From positions 420,047-484,046 of the forward strand of contig NZ_CP020914.1 in NCBI RefSeq assembly GCF_007833355.1: a stretch of 64,000 bases of DNA, given 5' to 3'. The notes beneath the pieces are model-generated. The model saw nothing but the letters and a program-made list of their open reading frames with translations, did not search any database and was not told the DNA's origin. Source of the stretch: Denitratisoma sp. DHT3. Its GTDB lineage: Bacteria > Pseudomonadota > Gammaproteobacteria > Burkholderiales > Rhodocyclaceae. The first letter of the stretch is position 1; every line of letters begins with the position of its first letter. The translations under genes were made by a program, and so were the position numbers. This document shows, piece after piece, positions 43,442-57,807 of this stretch.

Positions 43442-44413
43442 ATGCCCGAGACGAATATCGATGTCGAAGCCCACGTCAAGGCGATGGTGGGCCGCGAGTA
43501 TGGCCGCGTCTATGCCTGGGATCCGGTCAATCAGCCCATGATTCGCCAGTGGTGCGAGGCGATGGGCAACAAGAGCGTCCTCTACCACGATTCCGCGTTC
43601 GCGGCGCAGTCGGTCCATGGCGGCCAGGTGGCGCCGCCGACGATGCTGCAGGCCTGGACCCTGGCCGGCGTCAATGGCGAGACCCCGCCCGGCTCCAGCG
43701 CGGTGAATCCCTACGAGGCGGTGGATTTCCTCACCAACAACGGCTTCCCGGTGAATGTGGCGGTGAATGCGGAGCAGGAGTATTTCCGCTATCTGCGCCT
43801 GGGCGAGTCGCTGTGCTTCACCTCGATGCTGGAGTCGGTCAGCGACCTGAAGAAGACGGCGCTGGGCACGGGCTATTTCGTCACCAACCTGATGACCTTC
43901 ATGACCACCGAGGGCGAGAAGGTCGGCACCATGCGCTTCCGCCTGTTCGTCTATCGGCCCCATCAGGCGGCGGACGGGGCTACGGCGGAAACCCAGGCCG
44001 AGGCGCCGGCACAACCCGCGCCGCGCCGCCCGCATCCGGGCGTGAGCGACGATACCCGGTTTTTCTGGGACGGCCTCAAGCAAGGCAGGCTGTTGATCCA
44101 GAAGTGCAGCGCCTGCGGCCAGTTGCGCCATCCGCCGGCGCCGTGCTGTCCCGATTGCCATTCCTTCGCCTGGGAGACGCTGCCGGCCAGCGGGCGCGGC
44201 GTGATCCATTCCTTCGTGGTGGTGCATCACCCGCAGGTGGCGGGAATCGAGGCGCCCAATCCGGTGCTGCTGGTGGAATTGGAAGAGGGTACCCGCCTGG
44301 TGGCGGGCCTGGTCGGGATCGAGCGCTCCGAGATCAGGATAGGGATGCCGGTGCAGGCGGAGTTCCTGCGTGTGGATGAAGAATTGGTCGTGCCGGTGTT
44401 CCGGCCCATTTGA
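43442..44413 (+). CDS. chsH2: ChsH2-like fusion: MaoC-type hot-dog hydratase domain + DUF35 domain
   Basis: A 323-residue two-domain protein. Residues ~10-175 are a MaoC-like hot-dog domain in which the usual catalytic Asp is replaced (MGNKSVLYH, Asn43). Residues ~200-323 are a DUF35 zinc ribbon/OB fold with Cys222, Cys225, Cys236, Cys239. This is the layout of mycobacterial ChsH2, which pairs with ChsH1 to hydrate the steroid 17(20)-enoyl-CoA, while its DUF35 part binds the Ltp2 retro-aldolase. The ChsH1-like and Ltp2-like genes follow in the same operon. The match to the igr locus is knowledge-based inference; the domains themselves are clear. Confidence 0.85.
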   Translation: MPETNIDVEAHVKAMVGREYGRVYAWDPVNQPMIRQWCEAMGNKSVLYHDSAFAAQSVHGGQVAPPTMLQAWTLAGVNGETPPGSSAVNPYEAVDFLTNNGFPVNVAVNAEQEYFRYLRLGESLCFTSMLESVSDLKKTALGTGYFVTNLMTFMTTEGEKVGTMRFRLFVYRPHQAADGATAETQAEAPAQPAPRRPHPGVSDDTRFFWDGLKQGRLLIQKCSACGQLRHPPAPCCPDCHSFAWETLPASGRGVIHSFVVVHHPQVAGIEAPNPVLLVELEEGTRLVAGLVGIERSEIRIGMPVQAEFLRVDEELVVPVFRPI

Positions 44414-44424
44414 GGGAGCGATAC

Positions 44425-45537
44425 ATGGAGTTCACTTTCAGCGAAGAACAGCGGGCCATTGCCGATCTGGCGACCAGCGTGTTTTCGGACTACTGCTCTG
44501 ACGAACAGACGCAGAAATTCTCGGCCGGCGGCGCCGCCTACGACGCCGAGCTGTGGCAGCAGCTGCGGGAGACGGGCCTGGTGTCCCTGATCGTCGCCGA
44601 GGAGGATGGCGGCACGGGCCTGGGCATGGTCGAGCTGATGCTGACCCTGGAGCAGCAGGGGCGCTTTCTGGCGCGCGTGCCGCTGTGGTCCACCCAGCTC
44701 GCGGCGGCGGCGGTTTCCCGCTTCGCCGCGCCGGCGGCCAAGTCCGCTTGGCTGGCCGATCTGGCCGCCGGCGCCAAGCTCGCCGCGATCAGCCTGGAAG
44801 GGTTGCTGGCCAGCCAGGGCCTGACCCTGAACGCCGAACCCACGGCCGCCGGCTGGCGCCTGCGGGGACGGGCGGTGGCGGTGGCGCTGGCCGGGCAGTC
44901 GGCGGTGGCGCTGCTGCCGGCGCAGACGCCGTCCGGCGTGCGTCTGTTCCTGGTGGATCTGTCCTTGCCCGGCATCGGCAAGGTCGCCGGGCTGCTGACC
45001 CACGGCGAGCCGGCGGCGGACCTGTTGTTCGATGGTCTCGAACTTCCGGCGGACGCGTCGCTCGCGGCCGAAGCCCTGGCCTGGCTGGAGCCGCGCGTGG
45101 TGGCCTGCCTGGGCGCGCTGCATCTGGGGGTGTCGCGCGAGGCGCTGAACCGGGTGGTGGCTTACACCTCGGAGCGGGTGCAGTTCGGCCGCACCATCGC
45201 CAGCTTCCAGGCGATCACCCAGAAGACGGCGGACTGCCTGATCGACACCGAGGCCCTGCGCTCCACCCTGTGGCAACTCTGCTGGCGCCTGGACGCCGGC
45301 CTGGATGCGGCCGGCGCGGCCGGCGCGGTGAAGGTCTGGGCCTGCGACTGCGGCTATCGCGTCACCCATGCCGCGCAGCACATGCACGGCGGCATCGGCG
45401 TCGACCTGACCTATCCGATCCATCGCTTCACCCTGTGGAGCCGTGCCCTGGAGGTGACCTTCGGCGGCGCGCCCGCGCAACTGGCGGCCCTCGGGCAGTG
45501 GCTGGCGAGTCCGGAGGCCCACGGGGCCGAGCTATGA
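44425..45537 (+). CDS. Acyl-CoA dehydrogenase, ChsE1/FadE28-like subunit
   Basis: A 370-residue acyl-CoA dehydrogenase, shorter than average (~390). It opens with FTFSEEQRAIADLATSVF and contains RVQFGRTIASFQAITQKTAD near 250-270 and the C-terminal MHGGIGVDLTYPIHRF near 322-338. The middle domain is weakly conserved, as in the smaller subunit of actinobacterial heterotetrameric ChsE enzymes. I start at ATG 44425, after GGGAG, rather than the TTG fused to the previous stop. Its partner is probably the dehydrogenase at 47159-48337. Electrons would go to ETF. Confidence 0.83.
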   Translation: MEFTFSEEQRAIADLATSVFSDYCSDEQTQKFSAGGAAYDAELWQQLRETGLVSLIVAEEDGGTGLGMVELMLTLEQQGRFLARVPLWSTQLAAAAVSRFAAPAAKSAWLADLAAGAKLAAISLEGLLASQGLTLNAEPTAAGWRLRGRAVAVALAGQSAVALLPAQTPSGVRLFLVDLSLPGIGKVAGLLTHGEPAADLLFDGLELPADASLAAEALAWLEPRVVACLGALHLGVSREALNRVVAYTSERVQFGRTIASFQAITQKTADCLIDTEALRSTLWQLCWRLDAGLDAAGAAGAVKVWACDCGYRVTHAAQHMHGGIGVDLTYPIHRFTLWSRALEVTFGGAPAQLAALGQWLASPEAHGAEL

Positions 45538-56550: not shown

Positions 56551-56631
56551 TTGAATCTCCTTTGGAATGTACGTGAAGGGTAATGGTAAAGCGGGGCGGA
56601 CAGGCCGCCCCGTGTCGAATCCGCGAGCGGC

Positions 56632-57807
56632 TTACAGGCGCTCGATGATGGTGGCGGTGCCCACGGAGGCGCCGCAGCACATGGTGATCAGCGCGGTCTG
56701 CTTGTTCTGACGCTCCAGTTCGTGGAGCGCCGTGGTGATCAGGCGGGCGCCGGTGGAACCGACGGGGTGGCCCAGGGCCAGGGCGCCGCCATTGACGTTC
56801 ACCTTGCTCATGTCGGCGTTGTACACCTGGGCCCAGGAGAGCACCACGGAGGCGAAGGCCTCGTTGATCTCGATCAGGTCGATGTCGTTCATGGTCATGC
56901 CGCTGCGCTTCAGGATCTTGGCGGTGGCGTCCACGGGGCCGTCCAGCACGTAGTAGGGGTCGGTGCCCACCACCACGTCGCTGATGATGCGGGCGCGGGG
57001 CTTGAGGCCGCGGCGCCTGGCTTCATCGGCGCTCATCCAGAGCACGGCGGCGGCGCCGTCGGAGACCTGGGAGCTGGTGCCGGCGGTGTGGATGCCGCCT
57101 TCCACCATGGTCTTCAGGCCGGCCAGGCCCTCCAGGGTGGTGGGGCGCAGGCCCTGGTCGCGGCTCACCACCTTGGTCTGGCCGGTGGGCTTGCCGTCCT
57201 CGCCCAGGATCGGGGCGGTGACCGGCACCACTTCGCGGTCGAAGCGGCCCTCGGCCCAGGCCTGGGCAGCGCGGCGCTGGGACTCGACGCCCAGGGCGTC
57301 GGCCTGGGCGCGGGTGATGCCGCGCATCTCGGCGATGCGCTCGGCGTTGATGAACTGGTTGTGGGAGAAATCGTAGGGGTAGCCCTCGGGGATGAAGTAG
57401 CCGGGGCCGTTGTAGGCGTTGGAGCCCAGGGGCACGCGGCTCATCGACTCCACGCCGCAGGCGATGCCGATGTCCAGGGAGCCGGCGGCGATGGCGTGGG
57501 AGATGGTGTTGTTGGCCACCTGGGCCGAGCCGCACTGGGCGTCGATGGTGAAGCCGCCGGTGGTGAAACCCTCGCCCATGGAGAGCCAGGTTTGGCGGAT
57601 GATGTTGTTGGACTGCTCGCCGGCCTGGGTGACGCAGCCGCCGGCGATCATGTCCACGTCGGCGTAGTTGATCCCGCTGCGACGGATCAGTTCCCGGAGC
57701 GTCGCTCCCAGCAAGGCGGTGACGTGCATTCCACTGAGGTCGCCCACAATGGTCTTGCCCCGGCCAATGGGGGTTCGGCAGGCTTCGACGATGACGGCTT
57801 CAGGCAT
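56632..57807 (-). CDS. fadA5: FadA5-like steroid 3-ketoacyl-CoA thiolase
   Basis: A 391-residue thiolase that matches mycobacterial FadA5 along its length, judged from remembered sequence: [14 protein letters not shown] near 57-70, catalytic Cys92 in [16 protein letters not shown]-like [41 protein letters not shown] near 240-260, [14 protein letters not shown], and [17 protein letters not shown] with the catalytic His. FadA5 cleaves the steroid side-chain 3-ketoacyl-CoA releasing acetyl-CoA or propionyl-CoA. All thiolase residues are kept. It is the first gene of a two-gene minus-strand operon with the SDR. Confidence 0.92.

Follow-up and report, generated by a model that had tools for sequence, protein, structure and literature searches.

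The window, a stretch of 64,000 nucleotides from Denitratisoma sp. DHT3, carries a row of ten plus-strand genes (g38-g47), a minus-strand run of four genes (g48-g51) and a further plus-strand gene, g52; the products of g38-g49 very probably serve to remove short acid side chains from steroids. The row opens with g38 (43442..44413), which encodes a ChsH2/Shy2 protein with a MaoC and a C-terminal DUF35 domain. It is followed by g39 (44425..45537), encoding an acyl-CoA dehydrogenase (ACAD) subunit of the ChsE1/Scd2B-like type, g40 (45534..45956), a ChsH1-like MaoC hydratase, g41 (45970..47148), an Ltp2/Sal2 retro-aldolase, and g42 (47159..48337), a ChsE2/Scd2A-like ACAD subunit, with g39 and g42 occupying the positions of ORF41 and ORF44 of Comamonas testosteroni TA441. 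The second half comprises g43 (48517..50238), a CoA ligase of the PRK08279 type, g44 (50275..51306), a metallo-beta-lactamase (MBL)-fold hydrolase (PF00753), g45 (51352..52536) and g46 (52710..53843), Scd1A- and Scd1B-like ACAD subunits assigned to the C5 stage, and g47 (53862..55556), a StdA1/CasG-like CoA ligase for the C5 side chain. On the minus strand lie g48 (55648..56550), an Hsd4A-like SDR predicted to be a 3-hydroxyacyl-CoA dehydrogenase, g49 (56632..57807), a FadA5-like steroid 3-ketoacyl-CoA thiolase, g50 (58130..58606), a stand-alone hydratase of the MaoC family and of the type linked to FadA5, and g51 (58679..59356), a PaaI-family thioesterase, while g52 (59604..60110, plus strand) encodes a Shy-type MaoC hydratase without DUF35.

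The original prediction had placed an igr-like sterol side-chain module at 43442..57807, which agrees with the first ATG at 43442 and the end of the last gene at 57807. The plus-strand enzymes it named (ChsH2 fusion, two ACAD pairs, ChsH1, Ltp2, two ligases and the MBL hydrolase) are present with their catalytic motifs in place, and its identification of the convergent SDR and thiolase holds, but the unit described as having two genes is a same-strand run of four (g48-g51). It was silent on g50, g51 and g52. The gaps within g38-g47 are -4 to 45 bp, except for 179 bp between g42 and g43 and 173 bp between g45 and g46, and the row is likely to be transcribed as a single unit; g49 and g50 are separated by 322 bp. 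Scans of positions 43000-60800 yielded no promoters against 1.9 expected and nine terminators against 9.7 expected.

The proteins of the C3-stage core, g38-g42, were compared with solved structures. The g39 protein matches Tcur3481 of T. curvata (6wy8_A) with 212 bits, in keeping with its place in the gene order, and g42 matches Tcur3483 with 409 bits and 4x28_A with 398 bits, the runner-up scoring 137; 6wy8 and 4x28 are taken here to be ACADs of steroid side-chain degradation. A literature search on Tcur3483 returned no paper. The g40 protein, which retains the catalytic dyad D39-x4-H44, scores 113 bits against ChsH1/ChsH2 entries and 36 bits against the runner-up. In g38, the Pfam domains zf-ChsH2, OB_ChsH2_C and FAS1_DH_region were identified, with matches to the TcChsH2 DUF35 (145.6 bits) and to ChsH1-ChsH2 entries (98 bits). 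Its DUF35 carries two CxxC pairs and its MaoC domain is inert (G42-N-K-S-V-L-Y48, with the D/H dyad absent), showing the same His to Tyr replacement as that described in PMC11321319. The g41 protein scores 522 bits against the solved T. curvata Ltp2, passes the NCBIfam lipid-transfer model NF005892 (645 against a cut-off of 469) and carries YDHF at 296-299 together with Tyr346, the motif and second catalytic Tyr to which roles have been ascribed in Ltp2 (PMC12329534). The best solved-structure matches of g38-g42 and g49 are steroid side-chain enzymes, as predicted, and not fatty-acid or branched-chain enzymes, the latter being the case for g46 with its best match to isovaleryl-CoA dehydrogenase.

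The two ACAD pairs and the two ligases stand at the Scd1AB/StdA1 and Scd2AB/StdA2 positions (PMC8399759), and g39/g42, g45/g46, g43 and g47 together fit the coverage of the C5 and C3 stages. For g45, the best solved structure is a variant of Tcur3483 (156 bits). The g46 match is undistinctive because isovaleryl-CoA dehydrogenase (149.5 bits) comes out on top, with Tcur3481 at 116.7; its assignment draws on position and on linkage to FadA5, since homologues of both g45 and g46 (38% for the latter) are linked to FadA5/SDR/MaoC genes in L262 and L263. The best family for g47 is CasG steroid-24-oyl-CoA synthetase (NF052580), albeit at 413 below its cut-off of 750, and its position agrees with StdA1. 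The g43 protein scores 206 against the cut-off of 900 of the StdA2/CasI C22 steroid CoA ligase model (NF052587); it is assigned to StdA2, the C3-side-chain ligase, by position. A homologue of g44, 42-47% identical, occupies the same place in four loci (L004, L013, L018 and L030), and the protein is a putative acyl-CoA or ester hydrolase.

Several of these families, namely ACADs, ligases, MaoC proteins and thiolases, are common, and a unit for general beta-oxidation or for ring C/D (HIP) degradation could be composed of them: g46 resembles IpdE2 somewhat (150 bits, cut-off 450), g47 scores 278 against a FadD3-type ligase (cut-off 657), and g43 has as its best family the long-chain-acyl-CoA synthetases, above the cut-off (NF006134, 699 against 625). 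Such a unit is nevertheless highly improbable here in view of the DUF35-MaoC fusion and the YDHF aldolase, which to our knowledge are foreign to HIP and fatty-acid clusters, a gene order exactly that of ORF40-44, and match scores well clear of those of the next families.

Of 35 pseudomonadotal loci, 23 show the order ChsH2-ChsE1-ChsH1-Ltp2-ChsE2 without interruption, as it occurs on one strand in the window itself; of 38 actinobacterial loci, none does. Stretches were named by their best match among the window proteins, in one direction only, and loci cut by contig ends stay in the denominators. The five genes are followed by g45-g46 in 22 pseudomonadotal loci and then by g47 in 14, and all ten genes g38-g47 occur in three, from Simplicispira, a Comamonadaceae MAG and a Comamonas MAG. 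Among the 12 pseudomonadotal loci lacking the contiguous order, some end at contig ends and four have the order E2-H2-E1-H1-Ltp2, which is also that of 15 actinobacterial loci; another 11 of the latter have E1-E2-H2-H1-Ltp2 and 12 have neither. The homologue survey scored up to five candidates per genome, and one Rhodococcus locus (L044) is labelled, and was counted, as Cyanobacteriota. In a quick Ltp2 tree, constructed without bootstrap and without M. tuberculosis itself, the window falls within a pseudomonadotal set of 40 rows (SH-aLRT 97). By order and tree, the window groups with proteobacterial bile-acid-type clusters rather than with the actinobacterial igr. Nor is the row a surprise in a betaproteobacterium, as had been supposed, since mutant analysis of C. 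testosteroni TA441 had already assigned the same five genes in this order (PMC12502768). Judged by sequence, g38-g47 in all likelihood form a side-chain operon of the bile-acid type that is standard in Proteobacteria.

A rival reading, in which the igr genes were recently imported from Actinobacteria, has in its favour the identical enzyme set and the occurrence of FadA5 at no less than 50% identity in seven of the 38 actinobacterial loci; PMC4810484 proposes that Proteobacteria long ago acquired the pathway from Actinobacteria. A recent import is very unlikely, however, given the pseudomonadotal placement of Ltp2, the usual proteobacterial gene order, a GC content equal to that of the surroundings, and the synteny of the block g35-g48 with Denitratisoma oestradiolicum at 85-95%.

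The ten-gene row is a known cluster type; the thiolase unit next to it is less usual. With 606, the g49 protein exceeds the cut-off of 515 set for NF005889, a model of steroid 3-ketoacyl-CoA thiolases; it scores 486 bits against the solved M. tuberculosis FadA5 (runner-up 257) and retains Cys92, His347 and Cys377/378, which we take to be the catalytic residues. In g48, a glycine motif (12-19), a Ser in 148-153 and Tyr164-x3-Lys168 are present, and its assignment draws also on its neighbours; it scores below the cut-offs of the nearest curated SDR models (NF005862, 349 against 414; NF005861, 307 against 373), which we link to Hsd4A, and is named only Hsd4A-like. Its best solved structure is a (3R)-hydroxyacyl-CoA dehydrogenase, presumably of the yeast type. 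The g50 protein has the D-x4-H motif and is 52% identical to the MaoC protein adjoining FadA5 in L262, while g51, without a Pfam match, is named after a 94% identical protein of D. oestradiolicum. MaoC-FadA5-SDR-ACAD-ACAD form one run in two genomes of one genus (G399 and G304), and SDR-MaoC-FadA5 one run (L235) in a genome presumed to be that of Sterolibacterium denitrificans (G028, identity inferred), where automatic gene calls took other frames at the L235 MaoC/FadA5 and at L163 and the arrangement rests on other comparisons.

The substrates and reactions of the g38-g52 enzymes in this organism can be predicted as follows. StdA1-like g47 would activate the C24 acid of a steroid with a C5 side chain, which Scd1AB-like g45/g46 would then desaturate. 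With hydration by g50, dehydrogenation by g48 and thiolysis by g49, the C5 side chain would have passed through a full round of classical beta-oxidation, as an alternative to the aldolase Sal and the aldehyde dehydrogenase of other Proteobacteria. The two-carbon loss would yield the C22 acyl-CoA, or a free C22 acid to be activated by StdA2-like g43, and g39/g42 would desaturate the C22 acyl-CoA. A thiolytic C5-to-C3 step through g50/g48/g49 is plausible, and the comparisons moderately favour the C5 round as the one in which the unit acts.

A rather unlikely alternative is that the FadA5/Hsd4A-like/MaoC unit removes propionyl-CoA from a C8 (C26-oyl) sterol chain after water-dependent C25/C26 oxidation, the C5 chain being cut by a Sal located at 1.80 Mb. 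M. tuberculosis FadA5 accepts more than one chain length, and a Sal with YDCY does exist elsewhere in the genome. EB_dh-family matches occur at four places in the genome but are non-discriminating, D. oestradiolicum having them as well. An APH kinase at C1:923 kb shares 55.6% identity with a kinase of the presumed S. denitrificans, close to the 55% that PMC8449060 gives for one 25-HSK homologue of strain DHT3, its second being at 51%; the same paper has D. oestradiolicum without 25-HSK, yet that species carries g48-g50 at 95-97%. Moreover, the ACADs linked to the unit in G399 and G304 have as their best matches g45/g46, at the Scd1AB position of the C5 stage. The complete removal of C5-C8 side chains proposed originally is thus retained for the C5 and C3 stages and not for C8, the activation of which is not encoded here; no Mo-hydroxylase was seen among g38-g56, candidates for it and for the kinase lying elsewhere in the genome. 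The APH gene g55 (61287-62309, minus strand) was rejected as a 25-hydroxysteroid kinase, since at E <= 1e-30 it matches nothing else in the genome that carries it, nor anything in G028; g55/g56 resemble what we take to be a common kinase-ACAD pair.

The C5-round assignment of the thiolytic unit raises the question of aldolase versus thiolase, on which g52 bears. In a tree, g52 lies inside a five-row set of Shy MaoC domains (support 100/98); it shares 77% identity with the MaoC portion of a Shy that has the DUF35-MaoC architecture, and keeps D-x4-H. Its true start is perhaps the ATG at 59628. No DUF35 was found in g52 by Pfam or, by eye, in its upstream open frame, and a tblastn search of the window with the Shy DUF35 matched solely that of g38. 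Shy uses its DUF35 domain for docking onto the aldolase Sal. Sal (YDCY) is absent from the cluster, the window matches to a Sal above 45 bits being g41 and g08 only (28-32%). In another genome of the genus (G002), Sal-Shy-aldehyde dehydrogenase genes stand at the corresponding place and no FadA5 was found at E <= 1e-90. Each of four fused Shy proteins found (G002, G284, Vibrio L024 and G028 L303) adjoins Sal. Of the proteins lacking DUF35, the window and D. oestradiolicum each encode a member of the Shy clade and G028 (L235) a looser relative, and all three lie beside or near FadA5. It is conceivable, though doubtful, that the C24-to-C22 step of the Denitratisoma locus was switched from Sal-Shy-Sad to hydratase/dehydrogenase/FadA5, and that Shy, freed from docking to Sal, lost its DUF35.

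Replacement of Sal by the thiolase is unproven because a divergent Sal with YDCY and an adjoining DUF35 hydratase persist at C1:1797.6-1799.8 kb. Since the presumed S. denitrificans also has both systems, the C5 cut may be aldolytic, with FadA5 serving another round. Mutual exclusion of the thiolytic and aldolytic cassettes was likewise rejected on these two genomes; the G028 Sal and Shy are 80% and 64% identical to those of G002. A clean switch is also counted against by the FadA5-adjoining MaoC of G028, which is nearer g52 (55%) than g50 (47%). A G002 thiolase, taken to be a general one, counts against it too: located about 10 kb past the Shy of that genome (L265 14414-15622), it shares 40% identity with g49. 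An aldehyde dehydrogenase 56% identical to the Sad-like protein of G002, encoded downstream of the window at L171 and, in D. oestradiolicum, near g52 at L230, is a possible relic of the Sad gene, but the match is unspecific because a second such G002 enzyme is 53% alike.

The cluster is thus ordinary for a proteobacterial steroid degrader. It would supply the downstream half of the DHT3 side-chain route proposed from activation genes in PMC8449060, where D. oestradiolicum is classed with degraders of side-chain-less steroids; the latter species is predicted to degrade C24 and C22 steroid acids. The presence of alternative cassettes beside one operon in close relatives renders aldolase-versus-thiolase C5 cleavage testable, and, if the switch is true, steroid hydratases with DUF35 would be expected to go with aldolytic cleavage and those without it with thiolytic cleavage.

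Among known systems, the igr locus of M. tuberculosis (chsE1, chsE2, chsH2, chsH1, ltp2) has the five C3-step enzymes in common with the window but differs in gene order and in the actinobacterial placement of Ltp2; the window lacks a P450 and has adjoining ligases and a second ACAD pair. In the presumed S. denitrificans, homologues of the ACADs, ligases and MBL protein form one run (46-67%), a FadA5-MaoC-SDR unit lies far from that run, and Sal-Shy is present as well; its ChsH2-ChsH1-Ltp2 are only 37-52% alike, the aldolase having YDAF in place of YDHF. The cas genes of Rhodococcus jostii RHA1 (CasB thiolase, CasG, CasL-P), known here from a review description, include a FadA5-type thiolase for the cholate C5 round (PMC8399759) but are actinobacterial, with a different tag order. 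In C. testosteroni CNB-2, compared, like TA441, solely by order, nine listed tags (RS06795-RS06840) follow the order of g38-g47 (Table 1, PMC8399759); RS06825, where the window has the MBL gene g44, is undescribed in that table, and CNB-2 is listed without a steroid thiolase, whereas the window has g49. Also close is C. testosteroni TA441, where ORF40-44, equivalent to g38-g42, were assigned roles by disruption with cholate and lithocholate and with igr as comparison (PMC12502768), and where the mega-cluster includes the sal1/shy1-like ORF54/55 in place of the FadA5/SDR/MaoC genes of the window.

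The gene list of the original prediction, which described an igr-like module removing the whole of a C5-C8 steroid side chain, was borne out by Pfam, NCBIfam and PDB sequence searches, and the host genome is a single contig of 3,655,561 bases, in which the window occupies C1:420047-484046. As judged by the PDB sequence searches, the most strongly supported names in the set are those of Ltp2 (g41; 522 bits to the T. curvata Ltp2, next 180), ChsH1 (g40; 113 bits, next 36), the ChsE2-type acyl-CoA dehydrogenase (g42; 409 bits, then 4x28_A at 398, next 137) and the FadA5-like thiolase (g49; 486 bits, next 257). 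The motifs expected for function were all found in five of the products, namely YDHF and Tyr346 in Ltp2, D39-x4-H44 in ChsH1, Asn/Tyr instead of the dyad together with two CxxC pairs in the ChsH2-like g38, Cys92, His347 and Cys377-378 in the thiolase, and the glycine motif and Tyr164-x3-Lys168 in the short-chain dehydrogenase (SDR) g48. Weaker names are those of the ligase g47 as a probable CasG/StdA1 (413 bits against a cut-off of 750), of g48 as a candidate Hsd4A (349 against 414) and of the acyl-CoA dehydrogenase g46, whose closest match among solved structures is an isovaleryl-CoA dehydrogenase. The ligase g43 is a putative StdA2, so called from its position; the model it fits best is that of a long-chain acyl-CoA synthetase (699 against a cut-off of 625), and CasI reaches 206 of 900.

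The conservation of this gene order was examined in the best 80 of at least 584 confirmed loci with Ltp2 relatives (35 pseudomonadotal, 38 actinobacterial, 4 myxococcal and 3 other), each stretch being named by its best window protein. Within these 80, 23 of the 35 pseudomonadotal loci have g38-g42 (ChsH2, dehydrogenase, ChsH1, Ltp2, dehydrogenase) in contiguous order, and no actinobacterial, myxococcal or other locus does; 22 loci continue with the dehydrogenases g45-g46, 14 of them with g47 as well, and 3 with the whole of g43-g47. Two different orders account for 15 and 11 of the 38 actinobacterial loci, with neither present in 12, and the first of them also occurs in four pseudomonadotal loci (L014, L031, L033 and L034). 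In a 96-row tree inferred by a quick method with SH-aLRT support only, the window Ltp2 falls inside a 40-row set of Pseudomonadota and relatives (97) and adjoins a Pseudomonas/Comamonas group (87, not starred). Matches at E <= 1e-40 were found in 12 of 61 genomes, those of at least 67% identity besides the window being in the presumed D. oestradiolicum (92% and 79%), its congener G002 (83%) and G004 (67%). A YDAF form, with Ala for the His of YDHF and the second Tyr kept, was observed in 8 of the 96 Ltp2-like rows (L163 9121-10299, L164, L165, L158, L159, L161, L173 and L071); in the presumed S. denitrificans it sits in the run carrying the other side-chain genes. A further Ltp2 of D. oestradiolicum (L157 9459-10637) clusters with sequences from Myxococcota and Binatota.

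Synteny with D. oestradiolicum extends over g35-g48 at 85-95% identity, and g48-g52 carry on at 88-97%. FadA5 was detected at E <= 1e-90 in 3 of 61 relatives (the window's own genome, D. oestradiolicum at 97% and the presumed S. denitrificans at 68%). In a class sample of 369 genomes, with at most five candidates scored per genome, 3 had it at E <= 1e-130, the window's genome being one of them. The other two, G399 and G304 of one genus, carry the run MaoC-FadA5-SDR-ACAD-ACAD, its MaoC best matched by g50 and its acyl-CoA dehydrogenases (ACADs) by g45 (50%) and g46 (38%), and the presumed S. denitrificans carries SDR-MaoC-FadA5, with a MaoC nearer the plus-strand g52 than g50. These runs link the thiolase, dehydrogenase and hydratase to a single beta-oxidation round, which would most simply be that of the C5 chain. 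Among the 120 matches listed, entries from Halioglobus, Steroidobacter and Rhodocyclaceae likewise bear the name of a FadA5-like thiolase, and FadA5 is therefore not limited to Denitratisoma among the Pseudomonadota.

In G002, StdA1 is followed by the aldolase Sal (YDCY), a 313-aa hydratase Shy (DUF35 and MaoC) and an aldehyde dehydrogenase; the 61-genome search found no FadA5 there at E <= 1e-90, and some 10 kb further on there is a thiolase that shares 40% identity with g49. The MaoC half of this Shy is 76-77% identical to g52, which lacks DUF35, none being seen in the open frame upstream either. A tree of 31 rows places g52 and its orthologue from D. oestradiolicum among the fused Shy MaoC domains (100/98), nested at 90/83 and 94/86, and joins g50 to the MaoC that accompanies FadA5 in G399 and G304 (90/98, not starred). 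Matches to g52 at E <= 1e-20 occur in 17 of 369 genomes, and the surroundings were examined in four (own, G284, G399 and G304). Since the Shy MaoC part is described as active without DUF35, the domain that binds Sal (PMC11321319, in part), it is possible, though rather doubtful, that the local C24-to-C22 step switched from the aldolytic Sal-Shy-Sad route to the FadA5 cassette, Shy then losing DUF35. Against such a switch, a Sal (YDCY) is encoded elsewhere in the window's genome, with 54-56% identity to its counterparts in G002, G284 and Vibrio. It belongs to a second side-chain-like cluster (L167 8629-15568; C1:1797.6-1804.6 kb), whose other members are a DUF35 protein, a MaoC encoded on its own, a ligase and two paired ACADs; the second half of the DUF35 protein matches the FAS1_DH_region known from ChsH2-like proteins, and D. 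oestradiolicum has a 91% counterpart of this protein. Both systems, Sal-Shy and FadA5, moreover occur in the presumed S. denitrificans.

The window genes that were inspected, g38-g56 together with some of the others, showed no C25 hydroxylase, and g55 was rejected as a 25-hydroxysteroid kinase (25-HSK); thus the cluster covers the C5 and C3 stages. Overall, the original observation is confirmed and its interpretation supported in part. The APH-type kinase of the pair g55/g56 (window 61287-63598, minus strand) overlaps an acyl-CoA dehydrogenase by 4 bp, and the two may act as kinase and lyase on a hydroxyacyl-CoA. EB_dh-family matches lie outside the window at C1:1204, 1746, 2427 and 3263 kb, D. 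oestradiolicum having such matches too, and kinase candidates for 25-HSK are placed elsewhere in the genome, a kinase at C1:923 kb being 55.6% identical to one in the presumed S. denitrificans. In the part of PMC8449060 available, side-chain steroid degradation by strain DHT3 had been proposed, with two 25-HSK homologues at 55% and 51% identity against S. denitrificans; the first value is the ground for taking the genome with the 55.6% kinase to be that species.

Other features of the window include a near-perfect inverted duplication of 9837-13985 and 21505-23968 with respect to the directly upstream L170 (C1:400047-420046), at 99.9% over 4150 bp and 99.1% over 2464 bp, spanning a group of Ltp-like, DUF35 and ETF genes and another group of ETF genes; D. 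oestradiolicum likewise has DUF35 matches of equal score on the two strands, separated by about 10 kb. Two genes fitting CoA-transferase models (94-2735) recur at 97.8% identity in another part of the genome (L166 11812-14475; C1:1766.8-1769.5 kb). The stretches 6180-9720 and 24039-25091 encode a luciferase-like flavin enzyme exceeding the cut-off of the F420-type model TIGR03619, another member of the Bac_luciferase family, a protein resembling F420H2-dependent quinone reductases (PF04075), and a reductase of the OYE type matching mycofactocin-system and BaiCD models below cut-off. F420-type models would be unexpected in a betaproteobacterium.

Among the papers listed in searches of mainly open-access literature, none was recognisable by title or abstract as describing the downstream cluster in Denitratisoma, and the part of PMC7448270 available, on D. 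oestradiolicum and DHT3, makes no mention of it. The arrangement itself is known from Comamonas, compared here by published order, the only aligned Comamonas DNA being a MAG locus (L018). According to the portion available of a review (PMC8399759), similar synteny of the C3 gene set is seemingly kept in most steroid side-chain degraders. ORF40-44 of C. testosteroni TA441, already reported (PMC12502768, in part), are identical in order to g38-g42. Table 1 of PMC8399759 lists for CNB-2 the tags RS06795 (Shy2), 06800 (Scd2B), 06805 (hydratase), 06810 (Sal2), 06815 (Scd2A), 06820 (StdA2), 06830 (Scd1A), 06835 (Scd1B) and 06840 (StdA1), an order equal to that of g38-g47 with one unlisted tag at the place of the MBL-fold gene g44.
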